Origin: Brachionus manjavacas
Taxonomy: Eukaryota; Rotifera; Eurotatoria; Ploima; Brachionidae
Length of the DNA: 64,000 bases
Assembly: GCA_019054805.1 (NCBI GenBank)
Contig: JAHQIY010000015.1
Span: 132,001-196,000, forward strand
Direction of reading: 5' to 3'
The position numbers and the translations under genes are program-made. The notes under the pieces are model-generated. The model was not told where the DNA came from and made no database searches. It saw nothing but the letters and a program-made list of their open reading frames with translations. Shown piece by piece: positions 25,701 to 64,000 of this stretch; position 1 is the stretch's first letter, and every line of letters begins with the position of its first letter.

Positions 25701-28700
25701 GCACATCGTCTTCGCTTGGCGACACATGTCTCTTTAAAGCATCAGGACTCAAATCCTTAATGTTTTCAATGGACTTCCATTTGGCCAGCAACGACTTGGC
25801 CAATCCTTTGCCCTGCAGTTCACTCGTTTCGCTAATACTAGTCTCGTTGGCATTGCTATTAGACGCTTGGTCCAAATACTGTTTCATTCGGTTCTTGGCC
25901 AGGCCGGACTCGGGCACAAACTCGTCCTTGTTGTACGCGCTGGTGTCGACCGATGGCGTCAAAAGCAATGATGACTCGGCGGTGTCTGTCGATTGCTGCT
26001 TGTCGATTATGATGTATTGACGCGGCTCCATTTGAGGCGGCGGCGTGAACTCCTTAAGCTTTTTGATAGTTCGATCGGGACTCGAACGTTGTCCGTTTGA
26101 TTGTTCCAAATTTTTGAACAAACTCAAGCGTTCTTTGGCGATGCCGGCCGACGATCCGTTCTTGATCAAATCGAGTTCTTGATCGGCCGTGCCGAACACA
26201 GACGGCGAAGAAAGCGCTGTCGGATCGCTGAATAGAGCGAGGCGCGATTTAGCGATGCCTTTTTCGGTCAATTCGCCTTCAATGGTGATGCCACTGCGAT
26301 CAATCGATCGTTGACGAGCACCACCTCCACTGTTAAATATGGCCGCTGTTTGTCTAATTGAGCCGGCCGATGGCAACGCCTCTTCGCTCCGATCCGACTC
26401 ACGGATCACATTTTCGAGTCTATCGGGCGTCTTTTCCTTGAGCACTCGCTTCAATATGTCATCGCGTGGCGGCGTTATTGACTTTTTGCGGCGCACATCG
26501 TCACCACTGGTGGTCGACAACGGCGAACTAGGCGAGTTGAATATTTGTCGACGGCTCTTTATGTAGCCGGCATCTGGCATCGCCTCCTCCACTCTCTCGT
26601 ACACGCTGACCACGTCGGCCGCTCTAGCCATCGGCTCATTTTCGATCTCGGCTCGATCGGCGCCCTCTCTCGGCGGCGTTATCGCTCTGATCGGCTTCGG
26701 CTCACTAGTGTCCGTCTCCGCAATGCTGATATTCTCAAACTTGGTCTTTACATTGTTCAAGTCGGCAAAAGGCATCTTATCGAGTCAACAACAAACAAAA
26801 ATTATTCTATTTTACTTGATGGAAGAGAAGAAGAAGTTAACAAAAAAAAATAACAAAAAAAAAAAACAAAAAATGTTGGAAAAATAAAAAAGGCAAAAAT
26901 TAATTGAATTAAAGGTACTAACAATATCTTTGTTTCCATTTTTGGTTGCATTTTCTTCTTGCTCTTCGTGTTCGTTAACAACAACACCTTCTTCGAACCT
27001 GGAAAAAAGAAGCATTTTATTTGAGAGAATAAATGAGAGAGAGAGAGAGAGAAAAAGAGAGTTAGTAATTGAGATTTGGTTTTAGTTTTAGAAAACATGC
27101 TCATTGCAAATTGGAAGCAAACGAACTAAAAAAGTAAGCAGACAACAAAAACAAAACAAAAAAAAAATAGAAAAATCAAAAACCTATTTTTTTCTTGATT
27201 TAGAGAGTCGTTGTTTGGCGATGAAGTGGAAGAAGAAGGAGCGGACGAGACTGACGAGGCCGAGAGCGATGCCGCGTCGTCCACCTGCGATTCGTTCATG
27301 CACATGGAATCGGCATCAATCGACTTGAGTCTACTCATGTCTTCCATCATGTCCACTGTGGTCACTAAAAGCTCTTCGGTTTGATTGTGTTCTCTATCAT
27401 CACTGTTTAAAATCCAAGCAAAAACAAAAAAAAAAAAGACAAAAAATAATTAAATCACTGCAAACACATGCTCATGATCAAAAAATGAAAAAAAAAAACA
27501 AAGTTAAGTTAAATACTGACTTGAGAAATGTTTGCTTTAGTTTTTCGGATGGCTGAAGTTTTTCGACTTTTTTCAACTCGATCAAGTCGTCCTCTTGTCT
27601 GCTCTCGAACATGTCGCGGATGTTCCTCAAACGTTCAACGTTGTCTTCGGGTACTACACAAAACATTACAAATTAGAAGTCGTTGAGACTAAGACAGAGA
27701 CAAGACTGAGACTGAGAGAGAGTAAGAGAGAGAGAAAAAGAACTAAAAGTGAATGAGCGCGTGTGCTTATAAATCCACTAGCTAGCCAATTTATTATGTG
27801 TGTTTATGTTTGCTTAAGAAATTGAATCCGTTAGAAAAGGAAATGTTGAACTGTAAATATTGTATTGAATCGAATGACCTGTTAAGTGTTTAATTAGGAG
27901 AGAATAGTTTGAATTTTTTGTTGTGGTTGTGTTTTTTATTTTTGACTAAGCGGAGATAGATAGATAGATAGATAGATAGATCGACGGGCGATTCTCTGTT
28001 AGCTTTGCATTAAAAATCTAAATCGCTCTAAGGCCAACTTTAAAGCTAAACAAAAATTTACTCTAGCACTATTTATTCACTTAATTGAACAAACTAATTG
28101 TTCTTTCTACTTTTCAATACGCTTTTCTCTCATTTTTTTATGTAGTTTTTCATTTTTGAATCAAATCATGGAAAAATGGAAAAATAGAAAAATAGAAATT
28201 CGAACTCACTTATTACAAGCAGTAAACGTGTTGGTTTTTTTGTTTGTTTGTGTATGAAAAAATAGAGAAAGAAAAAAAGATTGATATGCAAAGCTAGCAC
28301 CGGTCAACCATACGAAACCAAAAAGATTCTAGCAAACGGAAAAGAAACGCTTGCTTGCTGCTCAAGTCATGTATAAAGTCAAGTTTATTTTGCAAGTTTT
28401 ATTTTTCTCGGCTGAATGAGGACAATTATTAGTCTTGAATAAGAATATCTCTCGCTGGCACCCAAAATAAAGCAATGTAAAATAAAGATAGAAATTAATT
28501 AAAAAATAAAACAAAAAAAGATTCGCCGCCTCTTAATCATTCAAAATCATCATATTCATTCACTCAAATCTACGAATTTATTTACTAAACGAAACTTTTT
28601 TTTTCAAGAAAAAAAAATAAAATAAAAGTGCAACGAAGGAAAGAATTTTAGTTCGACCAAAAACACTTTTAAATCAAAGACAAACAAACACAAGTACTAA

Positions 28701-31700
28701 AATTGAAATTAGAAAAATCCAAAATTAAAAGCCTAACAAAAAACTGAAAATCTCAAAATTAAAATTTTATAAAGACTCTTATTGTTTTTTTTTATTTCTT
28801 TTTTATTTCTTAAAGGAGAAAAAAAAATGTAACTACCACAAAGGTTTTCGTAAAGTGTTATTTCTTTATTCGATTCGAATTTTATCGCAACTCAAACTAG
28901 CATTATTAATTTTTAAATAAGTTTTTTCAATTAATTTAGAAGATTGATCAGCATTTGATACAACAATTTTTTTACTTTCTAAGGGTTATAAATCGAAATT
29001 CGAAGACATCCTACAAGAACCAGTTATAAGTTATAAGCTCATTTCTTTCTAGTTGAGTTTATGATATGCAAAAGTAGCAATAGTTTACAATTACAATCCG
29101 AGACAATAAAAATTATGAAATTATGAAACTTGAACTGAACAAAACAAAAACAAGCTTTGACTTTGAATTTCCAAGAAGAGTTCTTACTTTAATTTAAAGA
29201 AGAATGAAACTTGGAATATAATGACAGGAATCAATCAAAATAAATTCGCAATTAATTTCATTTACTTGTACTAAATGACAGTTTTATTTTGAGCTTTTTA
29301 CCTTTTGATTTTTGATTTTTGTTTTCAATAATTGCAACATCAAGAGTGAAAAGAAAGCGAGATCGGTGCCCTCCATAGCTTTTCTACTTAGTACATAAAA
29401 CAAATATAATGCCACCATAAGACAAATATATTTGCACAATGAGCTTGCTCTTCTTTTCTTTTCTGTTTAAGGATAAAAATCAAGAAAAGATAAATGGATT
29501 TGGATTTGCGCAAGTTGAAATTATTTTCTATTGAAACATTACCTTCGAGAAAATTAAAAAAAAAACTAATTTTACTTATTTTTTTTTTTCAAAAATATAT
29601 TTTATTTAAAAATTAATTTAAAAAAAGGCTTTGAGCTAACATTCGAAATGAGCGCATTTTGTCCAGTAAAAATTTAAAAAATAAACACACGTAATTTAAG
29701 TTACATCATTACAAATAATTTTTTTCCTTTTTCCTTATTTTCTATAGAGACATGACCTATCGAGAAAATTAAAAAAGCTGTGATGAGATTTTAAGACCAA
29801 AATAAAATAGACCAACTAATTTTACTTAATTTTTGTTTATTGAATAAAAAATAGGTGTTTGGTTTATGAGGAAAAGGCCGAATCTTTGTGTGTGTCAAAT
29901 AACACTTCAACCAAAAAGACTACGACTTTAATAAATAGTTTTTTTTTTCTTAACATAGATATTAACAACGACGACAAAAAGAGTACAATTTTTGTGTATC
30001 TAAGGCTGAAAAATTTTCCTAATAATATTTCTTAACGCCAACAACAAAACACACTTTTTTTTCTCCTCTAATCCTGGTACAAAAAACGGCTTAAACAAAA
30101 ATGAAAAAAAAAAAACAAAAAAAAAAGCACTTAAATGTCTCCTATGAAAAGAAAAAAAAGTTTAAACTTTTAAATTTATTTTCAAAAAACAAAGCTCTGA
30201 ATGATCACAGCCTTTTAGATTTTTTGTTTAAAATTAAAAAGGTTGTTTTTTTTTTCTTCTAAATAAGCATGACTTACTAATTCCGTCGACGGGATCAACG
30301 ACAGTGTCGTTTTGGGCATAGGTTTCGGGCGAATCAAACACGTCCACCATTTTGAAAATAAGATCTAAAACTTGAATAGAACAACTTTGAATTGCTTACC
30401 AAAACGAAAAGAAAAAAAAAGTTTAAATGAAAAATGAAAAAAAAAAAAGCGTTTGATAAAATAAAGATAGAATAAAAAACTAATAATCATTTTGAAAAGT
30501 GTATTCGAGATCGAACTTGGAATTTAGAAAAGAAGAGAGAACAGAAATGAGCAAGATAGCTAAGCTAATAATTTATTATTTCGAGATAATTCTTCTATTT
30601 CATAATAATCGGTTCTAGCAGATAGTTTTCTTTGTGAATGCTTAAGCCAGCCCAGTTTGTAGCACTAGAAAAATGGAGGGCGCTGCTGCAGAATATTCCT
30701 GATTAAATTAAAGTTCAATTCAATCAATCACTAAGTAATTCGGGCAGCCTACGCACAATTATTCACTTTTTTTTCTCTTTTTCTTTTCTTTTTTCGTTCT
30801 GTTTAGTTGGCTTAAAGGTTGTGTGGTTCGAATAGCCGAACGCATAAATTATCGATTTGACCAGTTAATTTATTTGTATTTTTTAGATCAAATCATAATT
30901 TGCACGCTTTCAAATTTGGACAAAATCTCTACTAACCTTTTGATTGAGTTGGTTTATGATGCTCTTCGCCGACCTGATCCCGCTCTTCACTGCATTCTTC
31001 TATTTGAAAAAATAATTAAAAAAAAAACACTATAAAAAATAGTTAAAATTAGTTGAAAAAATTGTCTGGTTAATTGATGTTAAAAACTAGAAAAAAAAGA
31101 GCCTCAAAGTATTAAACTGAAAAGTTGTTCAAAAGTTTTTTTTATTTTTAAATGGAACAAAAAAAAGATTTTGATTTTTTTATTTTAAATTTTTTTTTCA
31201 ATTCAGACACTCATTTTGATGCTTATCAAACCGTGTTAAAATCCCAACTAAAGTCAACAATTTTTGCACACTTTTGCAGATAACAAAAAAAGTGAACATT
31301 TGTGCACTAAATTTAAAATCAATTTAAAATAATGCTCAAAATCGTTTTGTTGCTGTTGTTGTTGTTTTTGTCTTATATATTATTATGTTAATCCTTAACT
31401 TGATAGTATGGCAAATATCAATGATCAATGATCAATGATCAATGATCAATAATCAATGATCAATTATCAATGAGTAGATTAAATCACCTTTTTCTACATT
31501 AAAACTTTCAATCAGAGAAGAACTGTCAACAAACTCTTCTCTTTCGATAAACAAAGAAGAATCGGGCACATCGGCCCAGAATAGATCATGGTCAACTAAA
31601 TTAGCAGCGTCCACAGCATTGTTAAATGTGTTACTGATTAATGAATTAGTTGCTTGTCTGCTAGTATGACTGCTACTGTGTGTGCTACTAGTCTCACTTT

Positions 31701-34700
31701 GGTCTCTAAACTCCAAATTGAAACAACTAGTGGAGGTTTTTTTGGTCATACAAGAAGGGGTTGTGTGTGGCAGCAAATAGTCGGACGAGTCCGTGGACAC
31801 ATTTGACGAATTGCTCGACGATTTGAGCATTTCTTCGGGCGCCTCTTCAATCGGGGCCAGATAAGAGCCGAAGCGATTGAACAAAAAGCCCGTTGACGCA
31901 TATTTTTTGATCGGTTGAGCCTGATGAACTATTGTGTAGTAGTCGTCTTCGTTTTGTTCTTCTTCGTCGTCTGTATACTCGTCATAGTTGAAGTCTTGAT
32001 CGAAGTCAATGTCGTCGTTGTCATTGTGATTGTCATTGTTGTTGTCATTATTGTTGTTCTGGTCGTGGTGGTAATGGCCAAAATTGTGTGATTGCTGAGT
32101 GTGAATAGCCATGCGAGTTTGATTGTTTCGATTGCGAAAGTTTTCGTCCAAATTTCGCTCTTGTTGGTCAAGGTCACACTTTGTATCGTTCGAACTCATG
32201 TCAATGGACTTTATTTTAAGATTAATGTCATTGATTTTTTGCTGTAGTCGATTGATTTTGTCCAACTTTTGCAATATGCTAATGCTAGTCTCGTTTTTGT
32301 TGTCGGTCAATTGGCAAATTTCCTCATCGGTCTCAAAATCGATGTCCAAGTCAAAGTGTTTGTCGTCACTGGTGGACGACGAGTGCGTCAATTGAGGCGA
32401 CAGAGAAAGGCCCGAGTCGGTCTTGGACTTGACGTGTTCGTCTTCTTCGTCCAAGCTCTCTTTGTCTCGGTTGATAATGTTGTTCTCGTCTTCCGAATCG
32501 GTGAGCGAACACGAGGACAATGTGGACTCTAGGCTGTCGGGCGTGAACAATTCTCTTGGATGTGCGCTCAAATTTGGATTAGACTTTGGCTTTTGGCTTA
32601 TAGGCTCAAACACGTAGTCACTTTTATACGAGTTAATGGTCGATTGAATTGAGGGCGCTAGCGACGGTGTCGATTTAAAGAACGCTCTATTTGCCAATGT
32701 TTGTTGCAATAGTGACTCGCTCGTTTCAGCGTCCAATTTGATTAATGGACCCTTTGTTTGCGACAATAGCATAAAACTATTTTGACTCATTATTCATCCG
32801 CTCATCAACAACAACGAACAAAAAAAGAAGAGCTAATCAAATCACATACAAAGAAGATCTATCTTTTTTTTTTGGTTTTTTTTTGGTTTTTTTTTGGTTT
32901 TTTTTTGGTTTTTCAGTATTTGTATCTAAGCTAATATTCTAATTTTACAAATTGAAAAAATAAAAACGAGACAAAAAAAAAGGTCAATTTTAAACAAATT
33001 TAAATCCAATTAAAAGCACATCACATTGTAATTAAAACTAAAAATTAAGAGAGTACATTTTTTGCCAACATAATACCATTTATTTGAACAATTGTTCTAC
33101 CTTTTTCTATTGTTACATTTATTATATGCAATTTTATTTGAAAATCTGAAACTCAAATGGCTCATTAAATCAGTTATGTCTCTTTAGTTCGTTTATGTGA
33201 CTTAATCGTGCCAGTAGTCGTATTCTTTTCTCAAAGATAAAGCCACGCATGCATTTAGAACAAGTTAAAAAATCTTCATTTAAGTCTCAGATTATCAGAT
33301 TGCTTTTTTTTTTTGTTTTAACTTTATCCCTGTCTTTTTTTTGTTTGAAAGAGACCAAGTCTAATTAAGTAAATAGGAGAGAAATTTTTTTGAGAATTCA
33401 TTTTTCTTTAATCTTTGATAAAAAATGAATGCATAGTTTTGTTCTCTATGTTAAATGAAAAAGCGTTCACTATTAGAAGAGAATGGCGCATATCAAATGA
33501 ATAATCTAGATTAATAGCCAAAATGGTGAGAGAGATTTAATTAAGGCCCAAATTAAACTATGGGATCATCATAGAAAGAACAAACTAAATTTGACTAAGG
33601 ATCTTTGCCACACATAACTTCTATTCTATTCGAGTCATTTAACTAATGAAGAATCAAATTATAGGTGACTACTATGAGACGACGTTTTGCTATTGTGCTA
33701 ATAAGAAATCGTCGTAATCAAAATAAAATAGCTGATGCCGAATCCCTCCAAGAAATGTTAGAACAATTAGAAGCAATTAAACAAAATTCGCTTAGAAAAT
33801 TATATAATGAAATTAAATATAAATATATATATTTTTATGTGTGTATGTGTGTGTGTTATTAAAAGACCTTTAAGCAGAAATGATTGAATTTTTATATTTC
33901 CAAATATTTATTCTTTTTTTATTGTTGTTGTTGTTGCTAATAAATCGCACTTTTTAAAGCCCGAAGAGTACCGTTGTAGCACCTTATATGCAAAAAGTAG
34001 AAAAAAAAAAGCTAATTAAAATTTTGACCTTTCAAGAAAATTGCATAATCTTGAAAACCAACCTGGCTCAGTTTCACCACTGGATACAAATTAAAATAGC
34101 AATTAACTTGTTGTAAAAAGCTGTTCACTTTTAATTTTACCACTAAATTAGTAAAATAAAATAGAATTTTATTTTTTTGCTCATTTTATTAATTAAATTA
34201 AAAAGATTTTTGAGTCAAAAAATTGATGCTGAAAAATTTTCTAACACACGTACCATTCTGATCGCTCATAGACTCTTCACTCAAATCTCACAAAGCCTAG
34301 TTCACAGGTGAATACTTTTTATTTTTCTAGAATCAAAAACGTCTCATTTGGTCAAACAATATCATCTAGCACTTGACCCCTAAATTTTGTAACTCAAATA
34401 AACTCAAAAAAAAAAAAAGAAAAACAGATAAATCTGAGCCCAAGTTGATTCATATCGACTCAAATCTTGTTTTTATTTTTTCTCCCATTTTTTTATTGTT
34501 GTTGTAATTAATACGACTGCTCCAATTTTTATAAGTTAATTTAAATTAAATTTAGTCTTAACAAAACAACTTGTCTTAGTTTAAAATTTAAAAAAAGATT
34601 GTTTAAATTGATTAAAAAATAATCCCAAAAGTCTTGTCAATTTCAAAGTACAGGTATGAAATTTGAAATATTTAATCAACTAACTAACTAACTGTAAACA

Positions 34701-36870
34701 AAATGAAAACTAGGTTGGCTTGTAATTTAATACAACACCGAGACCATAGGCCTAAAAGTAACACAAAATAACACAAATTCGTTCGTTATGGCCAGTGACG
34801 CCATTAATATTATTTTGTTGTAGCTTTTCTATAAAGATTAATGAGGCTTGGCTCGCATCAATATCCACGATTCACCTGAGATGCTTAATTGTGGCCGTGG
34901 GACTTTTTTATCATTTAGAATTTATGAACTACAGCAATAACAACACCAACGTAAAAAAATAAAAAAAATAAAAAAAATAAAAAAAAATTGATTTTTTTGT
35001 TGCTTCAAACTCTGTACACCTCATGAAAAATCAAGTTCTATTTTTTTTTTAATATAAAGACAATTTTTTTTTTGAGAAAAAAAAAGAGAATTAATTGACA
35101 AGTAATAATCGGGCGCCACCGATCACAAAAGAAAAATTCGACATAAACTAATATTTGACTAATATTATATTAATATCTAAGGTATCTTCATAGCAAACAA
35201 ATCTTTGCAAACAACTGCATCAAGATAGCTTAGCATAAAATACCTGTAGTGCCAATTGTGCATACGTTTGGCTCAGAACACCACTAGATTTTTTAATTAA
35301 TTTTTAAAATCGATTTTTTTCTTCTAAAATTAAATCGAGAATAATAAATTTTATGTGTGTTGGAATGAAAATAATTTCAAATGTCAAGCATTAGCAATCT
35401 AGTAGAATTGACCTAGAGGCGATCAAATAGAACAAAACAAAAAGGTGTTTATTTTTTTTCCATATAGACTTTTAAAAAGATATCACGCTGATTCTTAAAA
35501 AAATCAACAGAGAGAGAGAGAGAGATAAAAAATGAGACGTGATTTAGATTTATGCAGCAATTAAACAAAATAAAAAAAAAAAACGAGAAAAAAGCCAAAA
35601 TTTTTTTCTAGATTTTCTAGTTCAAGATTGTCGATATTACTTAAGAACGAAAAAAATTAATTAAAATACACAAACATTTAAAGACAAAATAAGCTAATTG
35701 CTGATTTAATAATTTTAGATTAGGCAAACTCAATACACACACACACTCACACACAAACACACACAAACACAACGGTCTCTATTTAACAAAAAAAAAAGAA
35801 AAAGAAAAAAATCTAATTAACTTTTGATTTAATTTCAAAACAACAACTACAAAAAAAGAAAAAACCCTTGAACATTTTTAGTCGATCGACCCAAATGGAT
35901 CGCGTATCTGGGTTAAAATGTGTGTCAATCAGCAGCATGAAAGCAATATGCAGCTAAATTAACGTTTTATTGCCAACAATAAATACGTCTCTCTTAGTCC
36001 CAACCATTTATCCAACCAACCACAAAACCAACCACAAAACCAACCAACCTATCTATTTAGTTTGTTGAACGCTTCAAAAGTTTCCCATCATTAAAATGTC
36101 TATCTACGCATGCATCTATCAATCTGAAGCTATTTGCTAGACCCAATGGCAACTTAGTCTTTTGGCTGATTTGGATTAATTTAGCTCTTCGAGCTGCTTG
36201 GCTTGTCTATAAACAACAAAATTGACGAAAACGAAAGCCTACCTATTTAATGACTAAATGGCTTCAGAAACATTTTTTATTTTAAAGGAAAGCTTAAATT
36301 TTTGAACAAAATTGGAAAAATTAATCTGAACATATTTAACCAAACAGTAGCAAGAGCAACAACGACCATAAAAACAAAATGTGCTAAAAGCATCTTACTT
36401 TTGCCAAAAGTGATATCTTTGTGCAAGAAAAAGCTCGACTCGTCTTGATTATTTGCCAATATTTGACTTGTTATGTGAGCGTTGACTTTGGCCAAAAAAA
36501 GCTCGGTCCGGTCCACTTGTGGCTCGTCTTTCAACAACAACAAAGCATCGTTCTTGGTCTCCGACGAATCTAGAGACGATTAGGATTAGATTACACGCAA
36601 ATAAATGCGCTCAACTTATGTCATTTACTTGTCTAAAATTTTTAATTCTAAATTTTAAACTAATGCTCAAACAAATTTAGACTTGGATTTACTTGATGAT
36701 CGCTCTGTTGGACAAAGCTTGCCGCTTCCAGCTCGCTTCTCATCTTAAACAATAACAACAAAAAAAAAGTTAAAAATTATCATCAACAAAACCGAGAGAA
36801 AAAAATGGGTCAATCAACTGAATTTTACTTTATATCCACAATCGCAATCAATATCGATCAGCTCACTCAT
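22773..36870 (-). CDS. LIMA1: EPLIN/LIMA1-like LIM-domain actin-associated protein, alternative ends
   Basis: Cytoskeletal protein; EPLIN homologues bind and bundle actin filaments at junctions and the cortex. Common exons (minus): 27653-27521, 27402-27184, 26998-26923, 26775-25463, 25033-24932, 24316-23861 and 22935-22773, all GT-AG with matching phases. With the 30350 first exon it is 844 residues; with the 31488-32790 exon 1254; with the distal set 906. Near the common N-terminus, VERLRNIRDMFES parallels the RLKMMFE segment of EPLIN. The middle carries nine G-x-A-K-like repeats and five TPP motifs. The single LIM domain begins CAICDKTVYAMEKFEADKKV and continues HKACFKCTTC; it is completed by YCTPHFLQLF and GNYDEGFG, the signature of EPLIN-type LIMs. 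A coding GQN tandem repeat precedes it. Alternative first and last exons are listed separately. Orthology to EPLIN rests on the LIM domain; the rest is divergent. Confidence 0.85.
23140..23422 (-). CDS. Alternative last exon of the EPLIN-like gene
   Basis: Open frame of 283 bases, acceptor ACTAAG/TTCGCC at 23424-23423, in phase with the LIM-half donor at 23861 (CTAAA/GTAAGA). It encodes a hydrophilic tail with repeated S-P and K: KTNSPKTKQLSPSVKSPASL, ending SPNPSLSPKPK and a stop. It has no Met of its own and lies between the two LIM half-exons, so the simplest reading is an alternative 3' terminal exon. It would give an isoform with only the first half of the LIM domain, 40 residues longer overall than the LIM-complete form. 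The higher G+C than flanking DNA supports coding. An internal exon of a separate small gene is less likely. Confidence 0.65.
23979..24035 (-). repeat. Coding 9-bp tandem repeat (GQN)n
   Basis: Five to six GACCATTTT-type units on the plus strand encode repeated Gly-Gln-Asn directly before the LIM domain. Confidence 0.9.
27954..27981 (+). repeat. (GATA)n microsatellite
   Basis: Seven GATA units inside the 2.6-kb intron between the proximal first exon and the first common exon. Confidence 0.95.
27985..30270. other. Large intron of the EPLIN-like gene
   Basis: Between the common acceptor at 27653 and the proximal first exon. AT-rich, no further in-frame exon recognised, no transposon block seen. 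Confidence 0.5.
30278..30350 (-). CDS. Proximal alternative first exon of the EPLIN-like gene
   Basis: ATG at 30350 opens MVDVFDSPETYAQNDTVV followed by DPVDGI, then donor ATTA/GTAAGT in phase 1, which matches the common acceptor at 27655-27654 to give GIIPEDNVERL. Short but compact, with a strong donor. This is the smallest of three alternative N-termini. Confidence 0.65.
31410..31470 (+). repeat. Short tandem repeat (AATGATC)n
   Basis: Seven to eight near-perfect 7-base units just downstream of the big alternative exon's donor. Confidence 0.9.
31488..32790 (-). CDS. Large alternative first exon of the EPLIN-like gene
   Basis: Open for 434 codons from MSQNSFMLLSQTKG to SFNVEK, then donor AAAG/GTGATT in phase 1, the same phase as the other two leaders, so it should join the common acceptor at 27655-27654. 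The protein is acidic and Ser-rich: TDSGLSLSPQLTHSSSTSD, a short coiled stretch (LQKLDKINRLQQKIN), an Asn/Asp run near residues 235-255, and the better-ordered QPIKKYASTGFLFNRFGS. No known domain. It could instead be an independent gene whose later exons I missed, but no stop or poly-A context follows and the phase match is exact. Confidence 0.65.
32863..32913 (+). repeat. (GGTTTTTTTTT)n tandem repeat
   Basis: Four 11-base units, about 75 bases upstream (on the minus strand) of the large alternative first exon; on the coding strand it is A-rich with periodic CC. Confidence 0.95.
32915..36390. other. Intron / intergenic between alternative promoters
   Basis: AT-rich. Contains (GA)n near 35510-35526 and a CA-rich microsatellite at 35734-35770. 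A 65-codon plus-strand frame at 33665 is not convincing. No transposon block recognised. Confidence 0.5.
36399..36870 (-). CDS. Distal alternative 5' exon set of the EPLIN-like gene
   Basis: Three exons, 36870-36829, 36738-36693 and 36569-36399, give MSELIDIDCDCGYK / KRAGSGKLCPTERSS / NSSETKNDALLLLKDEPQVD and on to FFLHKDITFGK, then donor CAAAA/GTAAGA in phase 1. That phase again matches the common acceptor at 27655-27654. The middle exon must use the second of two AGs (ATGAG/AAGC) to stay in frame. The stretch DRTELFLAKVNAHITSQIL is probably helical. No known domain. The set lies 9 kb upstream of the first common exon, so the link rests on phase and gene order only. Confidence 0.55.
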
Positions 36871-43782: not shown

Positions 43783-44450
43783 TCAGTTTTTTTTGGGACC
43801 GGCCGCAAAACGGCCACCTTGACCTCGCACCCGATTCATTGCGTGCTTGTGTCTTGACTCATGGAGAAACTTTTTTTGTCTATTTTTGGGTATGCGTCCC
43901 TCGTTTTCGAGTTTGGCTCTGGCTTGACGTCTCTTCAAAATTCTATTATACTGTTTGGCATTGACGTAAAGAGGCTCTTCTTCGCCAAGTTCACTTTCTG
44001 GCGTGTCACCACTCGAAACCGATGATGATTGGACAGTTTGCACTGGTGTAGACGAGTCCACTTCGGACACTAGTTGATTAGAGACGTTGACACGCTGCAG
44101 CTGAGGTGAACCGTTCGGATTGTTCGACGGTATCATCATGAACACGTTGCTCGAAGCGCCATTGCCAGACTGAGCATTCTGTGAAGTCTGATTGAAGCCT
44201 GACGGGAGCTGAATTATTTGTGGAGTTCCGTTCTGGTCCGAGTTTTGGACGAGAATGGCCTGTTGGCCATCGGCAAATTGGATTATTTGTCCATGTGCAA
44301 ATGAGCCTGAGCTGAAAGACTGGTTCGGCTGAGCGAACAGGATCTAGAAAAACAAAGGATTGGTAATTAGTGGGTTTATTTTGAACGGGGAGAGTAGAAG
44401 AGAGTAAAATTTTTGTTTGACTTTACTTGTTGGTTGCCAATTTGTAACAT
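43783..44450 (-). CDS. NFYA: NF-YA, CCAAT-binding subunit (copy 1)
   Basis: Sequence-specific subunit of the heterotrimeric CCAAT-box transcription factor; nuclear. Exons 44450-44427 and 44343-43783 give 194 residues (human about 347, so the Gln-rich activation region is much reduced). The N-terminus MLQIGNQQ leads to a Gln/Ser/Asn-rich region with [17 protein letters not shown], a segment also typical of the family. The conserved core is complete: [20 protein letters not shown] (A1, NF-YB/NF-YC contact), then [20 protein letters not shown] (A2, DNA contact). The linker has one residue more than in the vertebrate and yeast proteins I know. The core is not interrupted by an intron here, unlike copy 2. 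The start is the first Met; only a few bases separate it from upstream CCAAT boxes in inverted orientation. Confidence 0.96.
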
Positions 44451-46834: not shown

Positions 46835-47455
46835 TTTTCAAAATTGGCGAATTCAGTTATAATAAAAAAAAATTTAAATCCTTTGTTTAATAAAAAATTA
46901 TTTATTATCAAGTGATTAGTGAAAATTAATTCTACACCCGTTATTAACAAGAGGAATTCCATTTTGTTCAGCACGGCATATTTGATTAATTTAAATCCAT
47001 TTATTTTATTTCATCAATACTTAAAATTTAAATTTAAATTGTCTTGCTGAGGTCAAAGATAAATAAAGAGAGAGATCTCTTGACTGATGTAGTTCAGTCA
47101 AGAGATGGTGGAAATTAGACACGCTGTTTTACAAAGAAAACAATCTGGCTTTTAGTTTTCAGTAAAAAATTAAATTAATTTATGTGGCCTCTTTATTTAA
47201 TCTGGAATATCGAAAGTCGTGTATTTTATCTTCAATAGCATAAAATTTAAAATAAATTTAAGGATCATGATTCTCTTAACTAAAATGTTTATATACAGAT
47301 GCTGTCATAATACTTTGCATATAATTCTTTATTTGAGGAATATGCTGTTTTACTTTTATTTTCGTATGTTTAGTTTGACCAATATAATACAAATTTTTAA
47401 CATTTCAATTATTATTATTATTATTCAATAATAATAAAACTCATGTAACCATGCC
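46835..47455. other. Intergenic between two element remnants
   Basis: AT-rich; contains an inverted pair around 47070-47108 (AGAGATCTCTTGACTGA and TCAGTCAAGAGAT). No gene recognised. Confidence 0.5.
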
Positions 47456-47464
47456 ATTTTTGTA

Positions 47465-48120
47465 TTGAAAGAAACAACTCTTAACTACATCAATAAAGGC
47501 TTTGGATGTAGGATAGCATCTTTAGATTCAGAAAAGGCCTTTGACAAAATATGGCGTAATGGCTTATTCTATAAATTATTAAAGAGACTGCATACTTCCT
47601 ACTGGGTATTGCTTAGGATCTATTATAACTCAGCACTAGCTGTTTTATCTCTTCCAAATAATCTAACAACAAAACTCTTTAAAATTGAAAATGGTGTAAA
47701 ACAAAATATTTGTGGATCTTATGGGAATAAATGGAGAATAAAATTTAACGCTAAAAAACAAAAATTGTTAACTTTGGCATTCAATTATTTAAGTCTGTAT
47801 TTCACCTTAATGGATCCGAACTTAAAGAAGCAAATCAGTTAGAATACATAAGATTCATTATAGATTACAATCTTGACCTTAACACACAGGCAGTTGTAAA
47901 TTTTAAAAAAGTTCAGAGCAGCTTTTTTGGAATTTCGTATCTTCTGCCTAAAAATAGTCCTTCCTCTTCACCTAAATTCAAATCAATTATTTACAAAACA
48001 TATTGCTTATCTAAATTCACATTTGGTCTTGAGGCTCTCACTCTCAATTCGACCACAAAGGATTCAATAATAATAAGAAAGATACAATTAAATATAATTA
48101 TCTATCATCACAATTTTTAA
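47465..48120 (+). pseudogene. Non-LTR reverse-transcriptase fragment with internal deletion
   Basis: Begins with LDSEKAFDKIWRNGLFYKLL (the D-x-x-K-A-F-D-x-V palm motif with the first catalytic Asp), continues TTKLFKIENGVKQ (equivalent to the VPQG region), then jumps to WRIKFNAKKQKLL with no YxDD box, so the catalytic centre is deleted. A second frame carries EANQLEYIRFIIDYNLDLNT and KFKSIIYKTYCLSKFTFGLE, the usual downstream segment. Non-functional. Confidence 0.85.
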
Positions 48121-51401: not shown

Positions 51402-52186
51402 TCAATTGATTTTTTTTGCAAAGCGTCCACCTTGGCCTCTAACCCTATTCATGGCATGTTTATGTCTTGATTCATGCAGAAATTTTTTCTAAAAAAAAAA
51501 TAAAAGTAAATTAATAAAATTTTGCTCACTGTGTTGCTTTAAAGACAAACTTTTCGAATCCTCGGTATGCGTCCAGCATTCTCCAACTTTGCCCTAGCAA
51601 CCCGTCTCTTCATAATTCTGTTATACTGTTTGGCATTGACATACAGCGGCTCCTCCTCGCCAGCCTCACTACTCTCAGTCAGCTGTTCACTTGGAACATT
51701 GTTCACCAACGAACTAATATCACTAAAACTATGAACATTTTGTCTTTGGCTAGCAGTTTGTCCGTTGGACGGCATCATCATCATTATGTTGCCATTGTTT
51801 GTACATATCTGTTGACCCTGACCTTGGATCATGTTCGCCGACAAAGGAATAACTTGACACATGGAGTTTAGCTAGCTAAACATTTATTTAAAAAAATAAT
51901 TTAAAATTGTTACCTTGGTGTCCTCCTTGCTGGTCAGGGTTTTGAACAATTATGGCTTGTTGGCCGTCGCCCAGTGACACTATCTGACCATGAGCAAACC
52001 CATTTGACATCGATTGTTCATAACCTAACTTTAAGAATAGTTTACTTTTCCAAATTTTCTCCATTTTTTCTCTAAACTCACTTGTTGATTATGGTTGATA
52101 ATGGTGCCCAGTTGGGCATAGGTTTGAGAATTAGAGTCAAATTGGTGTTCGTGTTCATTTTTGACATCGTGATGCTCCTGTTCCAT
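51402..52186 (-). CDS. NFYA: NF-YA, CCAAT-binding subunit (copy 2)
   Basis: Second NF-YA paralogue. Exons 52186-52082, 52028-51914, 51852-51551 and 51488-51402 close in frame to 202 residues. The N-terminus is acidic and His/Gln-rich (MEQEHHDVKNEHEHQFDS); the middle has FAHGQIVSLGDGQQAIIVQN, which aligns with copy 1. The core is [20 protein letters not shown] (A1), then GRIPRIRK / [20 protein letters not shown] (A2), with an intron exactly in the linker. That intron and two further upstream ones make four exons against two in copy 1. The linker again has one residue more than usual, as in copy 1. The frame is open upstream of the chosen Met to 52240, but no earlier ATG exists. The third exon's acceptor is CAAG/TTATT; no better one keeps phase. 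Confidence 0.94.
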
Positions 52187-62495: not shown

Positions 62496-63425
62496 TTAAT
62501 AAGAGTTTTTTATCTTGGCTAAAATTAATTTAATCAAAAATAAGGTTCTAAAATTAGAGTTCAATTTTGGATCCATGATATCAAAATCATATTTTTGCAT
62601 TTTGGTCAAAAAAATGTCACAATTGATTGATGCAGCCAGAATTGGTTTAGCATTTCCAGGTATTTTGGTACTTAGATTACGGGCAGATCTAATATGATCA
62701 TTAGCTCTTGAGCACATTTCAAATGCTAAGTCTTTGAAATTTTGCCGCTTTGGTCTCAGAATTCTTTCGCTAAAATTGAACAAATCTTGTTGAGAAATTT
62801 TATGCTTTAGCAATAAATCCCTAGGCAAATAGTAGACCATTTGAGTTGGCTTTTTGAGAATATTCTTAGTCACGAAGCAGAGAAATTGTGCTTTGCCGAT
62901 GTGATTTGCCGCATGGTCACAATCCACATTATTGATTCCCAAGCAATTGAACAAAATGTAGTTCAAATTGGCACAATCAGCAAAACTCTCTAGCTCGTCA
63001 AAACTTTTAAATTGCTGAATAGATAAAAAAATTTTCTTGGCATCAATAAATCGACTAAATCTTGCTTTGGAAAGATTAAAATATTTTGCCATTAGATAAA
63101 TCTCTTGAGCTATTGGATCATTGAAGCTTGTTTGTTCATTTTTTTTTACTGAAGCAAATACTTTGTCTATTTGATCTTTCCAATAGAACAGCTTTGCATC
63201 TCCGACCCGACTGTCTATGGCCGACTTACCAACATTTGCTATTTCCATACTAAAAGCTTTAAGGGTAAATGCCGGCCGAAGTACTTGCTGTGGTGTCAAT
63301 AAAGTAGTCAAATAAGAATCATAATCGTTGTTTTTAACTAAATCAATGCAGTATTGAAAATTGGTTTGCCTAGACGAATAGCGCACAGTATTCAGTGTAA
63401 ATTTGACAAATCGTCTAGATAACAT
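62496..63425 (-). CDS. NDUFAF6: NDUFAF6, mitochondrial complex I assembly factor
   Basis: Squalene/phytoene-synthase-fold protein needed for early assembly of complex I; mitochondrial. Single exon, 309 residues (human 333). The N-terminus MLSRRFVKFTLNTVRYSSRQ is basic and Ser-rich, as expected for a matrix-targeting presequence. Then YCIDLVKNNDYDSYLTTLL, AFTLKAFSMEIANV, FYWKDQID, the conserved DHAANHIGKAQFL, PRDLLLKHKISQQDLF, LAFEMCSRANDHIRSAR and FDIMDPKL. The Asp-rich DDxxD catalytic motifs of true synthases are absent, as in the family. An AG lies immediately before the ATG. Intact and probably functional. Confidence 0.94.
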   Translation of the reverse strand: MLSRRFVKFTLNTVRYSSRQTNFQYCIDLVKNNDYDSYLTTLLTPQQVLRPAFTLKAFSMEIANVGKSAIDSRVGDAKLFYWKDQIDKVFASVKKNEQTSFNDPIAQEIYLMAKYFNLSKARFSRFIDAKKIFLSIQQFKSFDELESFADCANLNYILFNCLGINNVDCDHAANHIGKAQFLCFVTKNILKKPTQMVYYLPRDLLLKHKISQQDLFNFSERILRPKRQNFKDLAFEMCSRANDHIRSARNLSTKIPGNAKPILAASINCDIFLTKMQKYDFDIMDPKLNSNFRTLFLIKLILAKIKNSY

Positions 63426-63429
63426 CTTA

Positions 63430-64000
63430 ATTTATTTTTAATAAATTTTTTTTTTAAATAATTTTTTTTAAAAATTGGCATGTGAAAAATACTGCCATCA
63501 AAATTTTCACTTTATCTAAGATTTCATTTTAAAAATAACATGTTAATTTCAATTTTTTTTTAAATTAATCCCAATTTCAAAATGAAAAAAATAACTTTTT
63601 AGGCTTCTAAGTGGCTTCGTTAGATAGAAACCACTTTTTACCTCAATTTTAAATATAAAATTTTACAAGGCATTTTGAAAAAGTGTCCTCCTTACCACCT
63701 CATACTCGAATCTAACCAACGCACACTCAACGAGGACACAACTTGTAAAACACATAATGTGCTTTTAAGTATAAAAAATATTTAGATCAATCGTACAAGC
63801 TTTTTTTTGTTCAGATTTTATTTAATCGAGTCTCACTTAGTAGATGACTTAACAAAAAATTTTATAAAAAAAATTAGTTCATTAAATATTTAATAAATGA
63901 AAATAATTTTTTAGAGAAAAGAAAAATTTTAATAATTGAGTAACACGACTGAAACCAATAAATAGACTACTAAAATAATAGAATTGTCTTTAAATAATTA
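63430..64000. other. Right-hand flank
   Basis: AT-rich; probably the NDUFAF6 promoter at the left. A slightly GC-richer 100-base patch at 63680-63770 shows no frame. Confidence 0.45.

Follow-up and report, generated by a model that had tools for sequence, protein, structure and literature searches.

The locus raises the question of whether a single gene for an actin-regulatory protein can be entered through more than one coding 5′ end. For the window (the whole stretch of 64,000 nucleotides of Brachionus manjavacas DNA that was analysed), an earlier note had proposed an EPLIN-like gene in which three sets of 5′ exons, here called leaders A, B, and C, feed one acceptor at 27653 from three promoters. 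The analysis supports a single gene of the EPLIN class that could have two or more coding 5′ ends. The features are listed in Table 1.

Table 1 Coordinates of the gene's features in the window
Feature	Coordinates	Strand	Description
Leader C, exon 1	36870-36829	minus	first coding exon; donor GTAAAA; alternative end 36840 in window-excluded run
Leader C, exon 2	36743 or 36738 to 36693 or 36683	minus	frame varies between chains
Leader C, exon 3	36569 (or 36558)-36399	minus	donor GTAAGA, phase 1
Leader B	32790-31488	minus	434 codons, acidic, predicted coiled coil; donor GTGATT, phase 1
Microsatellite (ATCAATG)8	31417-31473		directly behind the donor of leader B; contains stop 31455 of the read-through frame
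Candidate cassette exon	30999-30937	minus	63 bases, between leaders B and A; phase 1 in and out; donor GTTAGT
Leader A	30350-30278	minus	ATG, 24 codons plus 1 base; donor GTAAGT, phase 1
Common exon 1	27653-27521	minus	entered in phase 1; encodes PEDNVERLRNIRDMFES
Common exon 2	27402-27184	minus	
Common exon 3	26998-26923	minus	
Common exon 4	26775-25463	minus	seven whole motif copies and most of the eighth, which continues in exon 5
Common exon 5	25033-24932	minus	
Common exon 6	24316-23861	minus	ninth motif copy and first part of LIM domain
Candidate alternative 3′-terminal exon	23422-23140	minus	S/P/K-rich; in phase with exon 6
Last exon of the 844-residue model	22935-22773	minus	rest of LIM domain, NYDEGFG tail, stop

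Gene prediction

The gene finder learned from the window together with another 200 kb of this genome, and a retrained version left the window out (mean intron lengths of 300, 600, and 1500). A first self-trained version was abandoned after it had drifted towards spurious short introns; since the second self-trained version still learned weak donors, a generic splice model was adopted. As a linear finder cannot represent alternative first exons, its runs show only that pieces are compatible with one another.

Identity of the gene and its common exons

The name EPLIN-like, given in the earlier note, was right. Only the join of 23861 to 22935 yields a whole LIM domain, which matches the Pfam LIM model over its full length (1-58) at 45.7 bits (cut-off 22.9), whereas the portion in exon 6 alone reaches 24.7 bits; this join rests on homology because the gene finder never made it unaided. 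Among 34 PDB matches to the LIM domain with its NYDEGFG tail, the best was EPLIN (2d8y, E = 1.2e-23), with an alignment that continues beyond the LIM domain through NYDEGFG, and the second-best was LIMD2 (2lzu, E 2.6e-20), in which a 72-residue LIM piece was matched that comprises LIM and the start of the same tail. LIMD2 is not known to have a long actin-binding region. According to an excerpt of PMC3305314, members of the EPLIN class carry a motif of 22 residues that adjoins the LIM domain on its C-terminal side, and the class definition also includes F-actin binding and bundling. The present LIM domain is of the EPLIN kind, EPLIN and LIMD2 being its two best matches of the 34, and the 22-residue motif is apparently present, to judge from the alignment through NYDEGFG. 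By sequence resemblance, the gene belongs to the EPLIN class (LIMA1-like) of actin regulators, and the genome search gave no sign of a second copy: in 114 Mb of the own genome, at E up to 1, leader B and the 438-residue exon matched nothing but themselves. The seven common exons form one open frame, which contributes 820 residues behind each leader. The first common exons had a best E of 0.6 against PDB.

The common region contains nine copies of G-x-[AI]-[KR]-x5-[FYW] (26775-23861, minus strand; residues 237-672 of the 844-residue model). In 2000 shuffles, searched with a pattern allowing x4 or x5, the mean was 0.06 copies and the maximum 2, an excess that is inflated because the pattern was chosen after the copies were seen. 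The motif had no Pfam match and is possibly an actin-binding repeat; five TPP[RKP] motifs occur in the same 844-residue protein.

XIRP2 belongs to the same EPLIN LIM class (excerpt of PMC3305314), and its Xin repeats were not found in the present protein. Against the printed Xin repeat consensus, GDV(K/Q/R/S)XX(R/K/T)WLFET(Q/R/K/T)PLD, the nine copies scored -4 to 18 and had no Pfam Xin match, and they were rejected as Xin repeats; Pfam Xin gave no match on three pieces of the common protein (E up to 10) and none over the cut-off in the genome. The best scores against the consensus fell outside the nine copies, at residues 631 and 31, where the sequence is suggestive of Xin-like sites; the top score was reached by 97 of 1000 shuffles and the second by 12 of 1000.

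At the 3′ end, a candidate alternative terminal exon (Table 1) lies within the intron by which the LIM domain is interrupted. It has a held-out coding score of 18.6 and a weak acceptor (-0.2, 8th percentile in the generic model). Used as a terminal exon, it would give a protein of 884 residues that lacks the NYDEGFG tail and the latter half of the LIM domain. The gene ended there in the generic-splice run, and with 23411-23140 in the window-excluded run, while the self-trained HMM run placed 23422-23243 before 22935 as a 180-base, 60-residue insert.

Within the window, no RNA family at gathering score and no tRNA was found. Two NF-YA-type ORFs lie close together at 43783-44343 and 51539-51871 (minus), the former with a Pfam CBFB_NFYA domain and the latter judged by eye, as a possible tandem duplicate. 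Between these NF-YA-like genes, ORF pieces at 47438-48120 (plus) resemble, by eye, a decayed non-LTR reverse transcriptase. One long ORF at 62496-63431 (minus) encodes a squalene/phytoene synthase-type protein (Pfam SQS_PSY, 102.6 bits), which we take to be perhaps NDUFAF6.

The leaders

Leader B is clearly coding, with a held-out score of 150.8. Its ATG stands 3 bases after an in-frame stop, and the start may lie instead at the second ATG (32772; 428 residues), as in the self-trained, the generic-splice, and the window-excluded run with a mean intron of 300. The N-terminus of 434 residues and the open protein of 1254 residues claimed earlier were rebuilt exactly from this leader. The donors and lengths had been listed in mismatched orders: 31488 belongs to 434/1254, and 36399 to the leader of about 86 residues.

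The stretch running from 31487 to the stop has a neutral coding score (-1.5 with the window in training, 0.3 held out), so the end of leader B rests on the donor and on the microsatellite behind it. No donor other than 31488 scores above 2 between 31620 and the stop of leader B. A natural C-terminus at 31455 is unlikely because the reading frame enters the microsatellite, which supplies the stop. Donors of at least 5.6 within the last 33 bases were found in 0 of 28 terminal exons of the gene finder, a count to be read with the caution that the program could be biased against such ends. With its nominal stop in a microsatellite and 31488 as the only good late donor, leader B is probably spliced onward from 31488.

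Leader B is acidic, as the earlier note had described it, and searches against Pfam (E up to 0.1) and PDB (E up to 1) returned no family and no match. Its share of D+E (18%, net charge -44) is, however, little above the 17% of a 615-residue stretch of the common region, and a coiled-coil helix is predicted. An AlphaFold model from the single sequence, mostly of low confidence (mean pLDDT 45), contains one long helix at residues 155-233, in which ten-residue blocks from 171 to 230 have pLDDT values of 66 to 95, and I/L residues follow a heptad pattern at residues 172-196. Because of this predicted coiled coil, leader B could dimerise the long form of the protein.

For leader A, the 24-residue N-terminus and the 844-residue open protein were likewise reproduced exactly. 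Its coding score is 11.1 with the window left out of training, and first-exon candidates as good as this one numbered 2 in a background of 394 strand-kb (model trained partly on the window), which corresponds to 0.05 expected in 9.2 kb. The donor ranks at the 10th percentile of 70 trusted sites in the self-learned splice model and at the 62nd of 40 in the generic one. The encoded peptide is acidic (26% D+E, net charge -6).

The third exon of leader C, ending at 36399, is clear (coding score 13.1, window left out of training); among trusted sites, its acceptor ranks at the 3rd percentile in the self-learned model (70 sites) and at the 52nd in the generic one (40 sites). The leader's ATG stands 15 bases after an in-frame stop. 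An 86-residue leader and a 906-residue protein, as proposed earlier, can be obtained, but other chains compete with the one that yields them. When chains with one or two introns were enumerated, two had 86 residues, and the higher-scoring of these (36870-36829, 36738-36693, 36569-36399) had a summed splice score of 11.2; among 569 open two-intron chains to 36399, the best scored 13.9 and gave 84 residues, and the self-trained gene finder picked a chain of 91. Leader C is therefore given as about 84-91 residues, of which the first 30 or so are provisional. It is acidic (18% D+E, net charge -7) and matched no Pfam family. No motif common to the leaders was found, and the C-B, A-B, and A-C alignments were no better than most of 500 shuffles.

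Joining of the leaders to the common exons

As the earlier note had stated, the donors 30278, 31488, and 36399 all close in phase 1, and common exon 1 is entered in the matching phase. The phases of 75 trusted introns elsewhere are distributed 25/29/21, i.e., 39% are phase 1, and by a simple product three phase-1 donors alone have a chance of about 6%; with 29 of 75 trusted introns in this phase, phase agreement alone is weak evidence. Acceptors farther upstream than 27653 are ruled out by a TAA in the same frame at 27675; AGs inside the exon were outside the scoring. The leader introns would be long for this genome, at 2.6, 3.8, and 8.7 kb: the longest trusted intron, out of 40, has 1,814 bases.

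A candidate cassette exon between leaders B and A (Table 1) was absent from the exon sets of the earlier note. Its acceptor scores 4.3 and its donor 5.2 in the generic splice model, no exon as good occurred in the 394 strand-kb background (model trained partly on the window), and its inclusion would lengthen leader B by 21 residues (455/1275). The coding evidence is modest: the score of 8.3 with the window in training drops to 4.5 held out, where a different frame reaches 4.9.

Joins varied between the gene-finder runs, although phases and ORFs fit two or more first exons on one acceptor. In the self-trained run, B and C were separate genes, A was omitted, and the common part began at 27666; in the generic-splice run, A was joined directly to 27653, B with 30999 formed a separate gene, and C was again separate. 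Without the window in training, a mean intron of 300 gave B-30999-A joined, with the leaders apart from the common exons and the common part again beginning at 27666, and mean introns of 600 and 1500 gave a single chain C-B-30999-A-27653. The exon anatomy is mostly solid, unlike the transcripts, whose junctions are predicted.

Proposed gene model and alternatives

The reading we favour, with confidence somewhat better than even, is that of an EPLIN-class gene in which at least two alternative 5′ coding ends are spliced in phase 1 into 27653. Transcripts from leader B (434 or 428 residues) or leader C (about 84-91) would be spliced to this acceptor in phase 1, as would, probably also, transcripts starting at leader A (24 residues); behind the acceptor would follow the region of the nine-copy motif and then the C-terminal LIM-EPLIN domain. 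Separate promoters would set the place and time of each form, and the N-terminus would alter the binding partners, both as for human EPLIN-alpha and -beta. Leader B would contribute an acidic region along with the predicted coiled coil. The interpretation in the earlier note is supported in part: more than one coding 5′ end is possible, but the three promoters are a prediction, and leader A fits equally as an internal exon.

On this last point turns an alternative that we regard as possible though rather doubtful, namely a linear 5′ region starting from B (or C), in which 30999-30937 and an internal A are phase-1 cassettes, included or skipped, and the N-termini differ more by splicing than by promoters. 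The open stretch before the ATG of leader A offers acceptors at 30394 (score 5.3) and 30364 (3.1), both fitting phase 1, so leader A could just as well begin at either of them as an internal exon; all three window-excluded runs took B-30999-A from 30394, and any combination of cassettes stays open because all boundaries are phase 1. Against it, the coding score of leader A drops on upstream extension, from 11.1 (30350-30278) to 7.3 (30394-30278), and the generic-splice run made A a first exon. The step from C to B is a further obstacle. In a scan of phase-1 exons with acceptors of at least 3, it needs acceptor 32528 or 31844, the former at the loss of 262 bases of leader B with a coding score of 21.0, and the held-out chains link C to B solely by way of very short exons (11 to 28 bases).

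It is improbable that B (with or without 30999) or C constitutes a separate upstream gene. Such a gene would stop at 31455 or, after 30999, at a TAG overlapping the donor (30934), and the self-trained and generic-splice runs indeed predicted a complete gene made up of B and 30999-30932, with that TAG as its stop, and set C apart as a gene of its own. However, stop 31455 falls in the microsatellite, the TAG forms part of a good donor (GTTAGT, 5.2), and all upstream donors fit 27653 in phase 1. Least probable of all is a common exon that serves as first exon from the in-frame ATG at 27666 (MFCVVPEDNVERL...), 13 bases before acceptor 27653, which would then be unused or a further alternative: this start, which can coexist with the other models, was picked by the self-trained run and the window-excluded run with a mean intron of 300, but short-mean-intron runs favour it by construction, a pyrimidine-rich stretch (by eye) lies about 27 to 87 bases before 27653, and the acceptor itself scores middling (42nd percentile of 40 in the generic model, 21st of 70 in the self-learned model).

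Comparison with known EPLIN genes

EPLIN connects cadherin junctions with actin, and work on its promoters is reportedly due to Chen et al. 2000. In human, EPLIN-alpha and -beta arise from two promoters, which place a short or a long N-terminus before the shared exons 4-11, and alternative N-termini are described for human and mouse and a single isoform for zebrafish (excerpt of PMC11084159). By analogy, the present arrangement would be of a known kind, since alternative EPLIN N-termini are already known in human, and the surprise is modest because the human two-promoter case is known. Both human/mouse EPLIN (LIMA1) and the present gene have one LIM domain with the NYDEGFG tail. Another shared trait is a similar motif: human EPLIN carries one of the type LKxMFE shortly after its alpha start. 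In contrast to the two promoters there, up to three leaders occur here, with junctions predicted from sequence; the LIM domain is C-terminal instead of central, and, unlike human/mouse EPLIN, the present protein has nine copies of an extra motif and the gene a 434-residue leader with a predicted coiled coil. New here are this predicted coiled coil, the nine-copy motif, and the candidate 3′ exon cutting the LIM domain. Among the matches listed from the open-licence literature, as far as their excerpts reach, no paper deals with alternative first exons of invertebrate EPLIN.

It is unlikely, though conceivable, that all of these features come together in an EPLIN gene that swaps both of its ends, with several promoters selecting between unrelated N-termini, one of them a dimerising coiled-coil leader, an alternative last exon removing half of the LIM domain, and a core of nine motifs. 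If several N-termini are indeed exchanged at a comparable position in this gene, this would point to a switch that either is older than the vertebrates or was invented repeatedly; if the switch point is truly the same in human and here, alternative EPLIN N-termini would predate vertebrates. Such a gene would offer a small model of N-terminus function, and the novelty, if borne out, would lie in the age and number of EPLIN N-termini.
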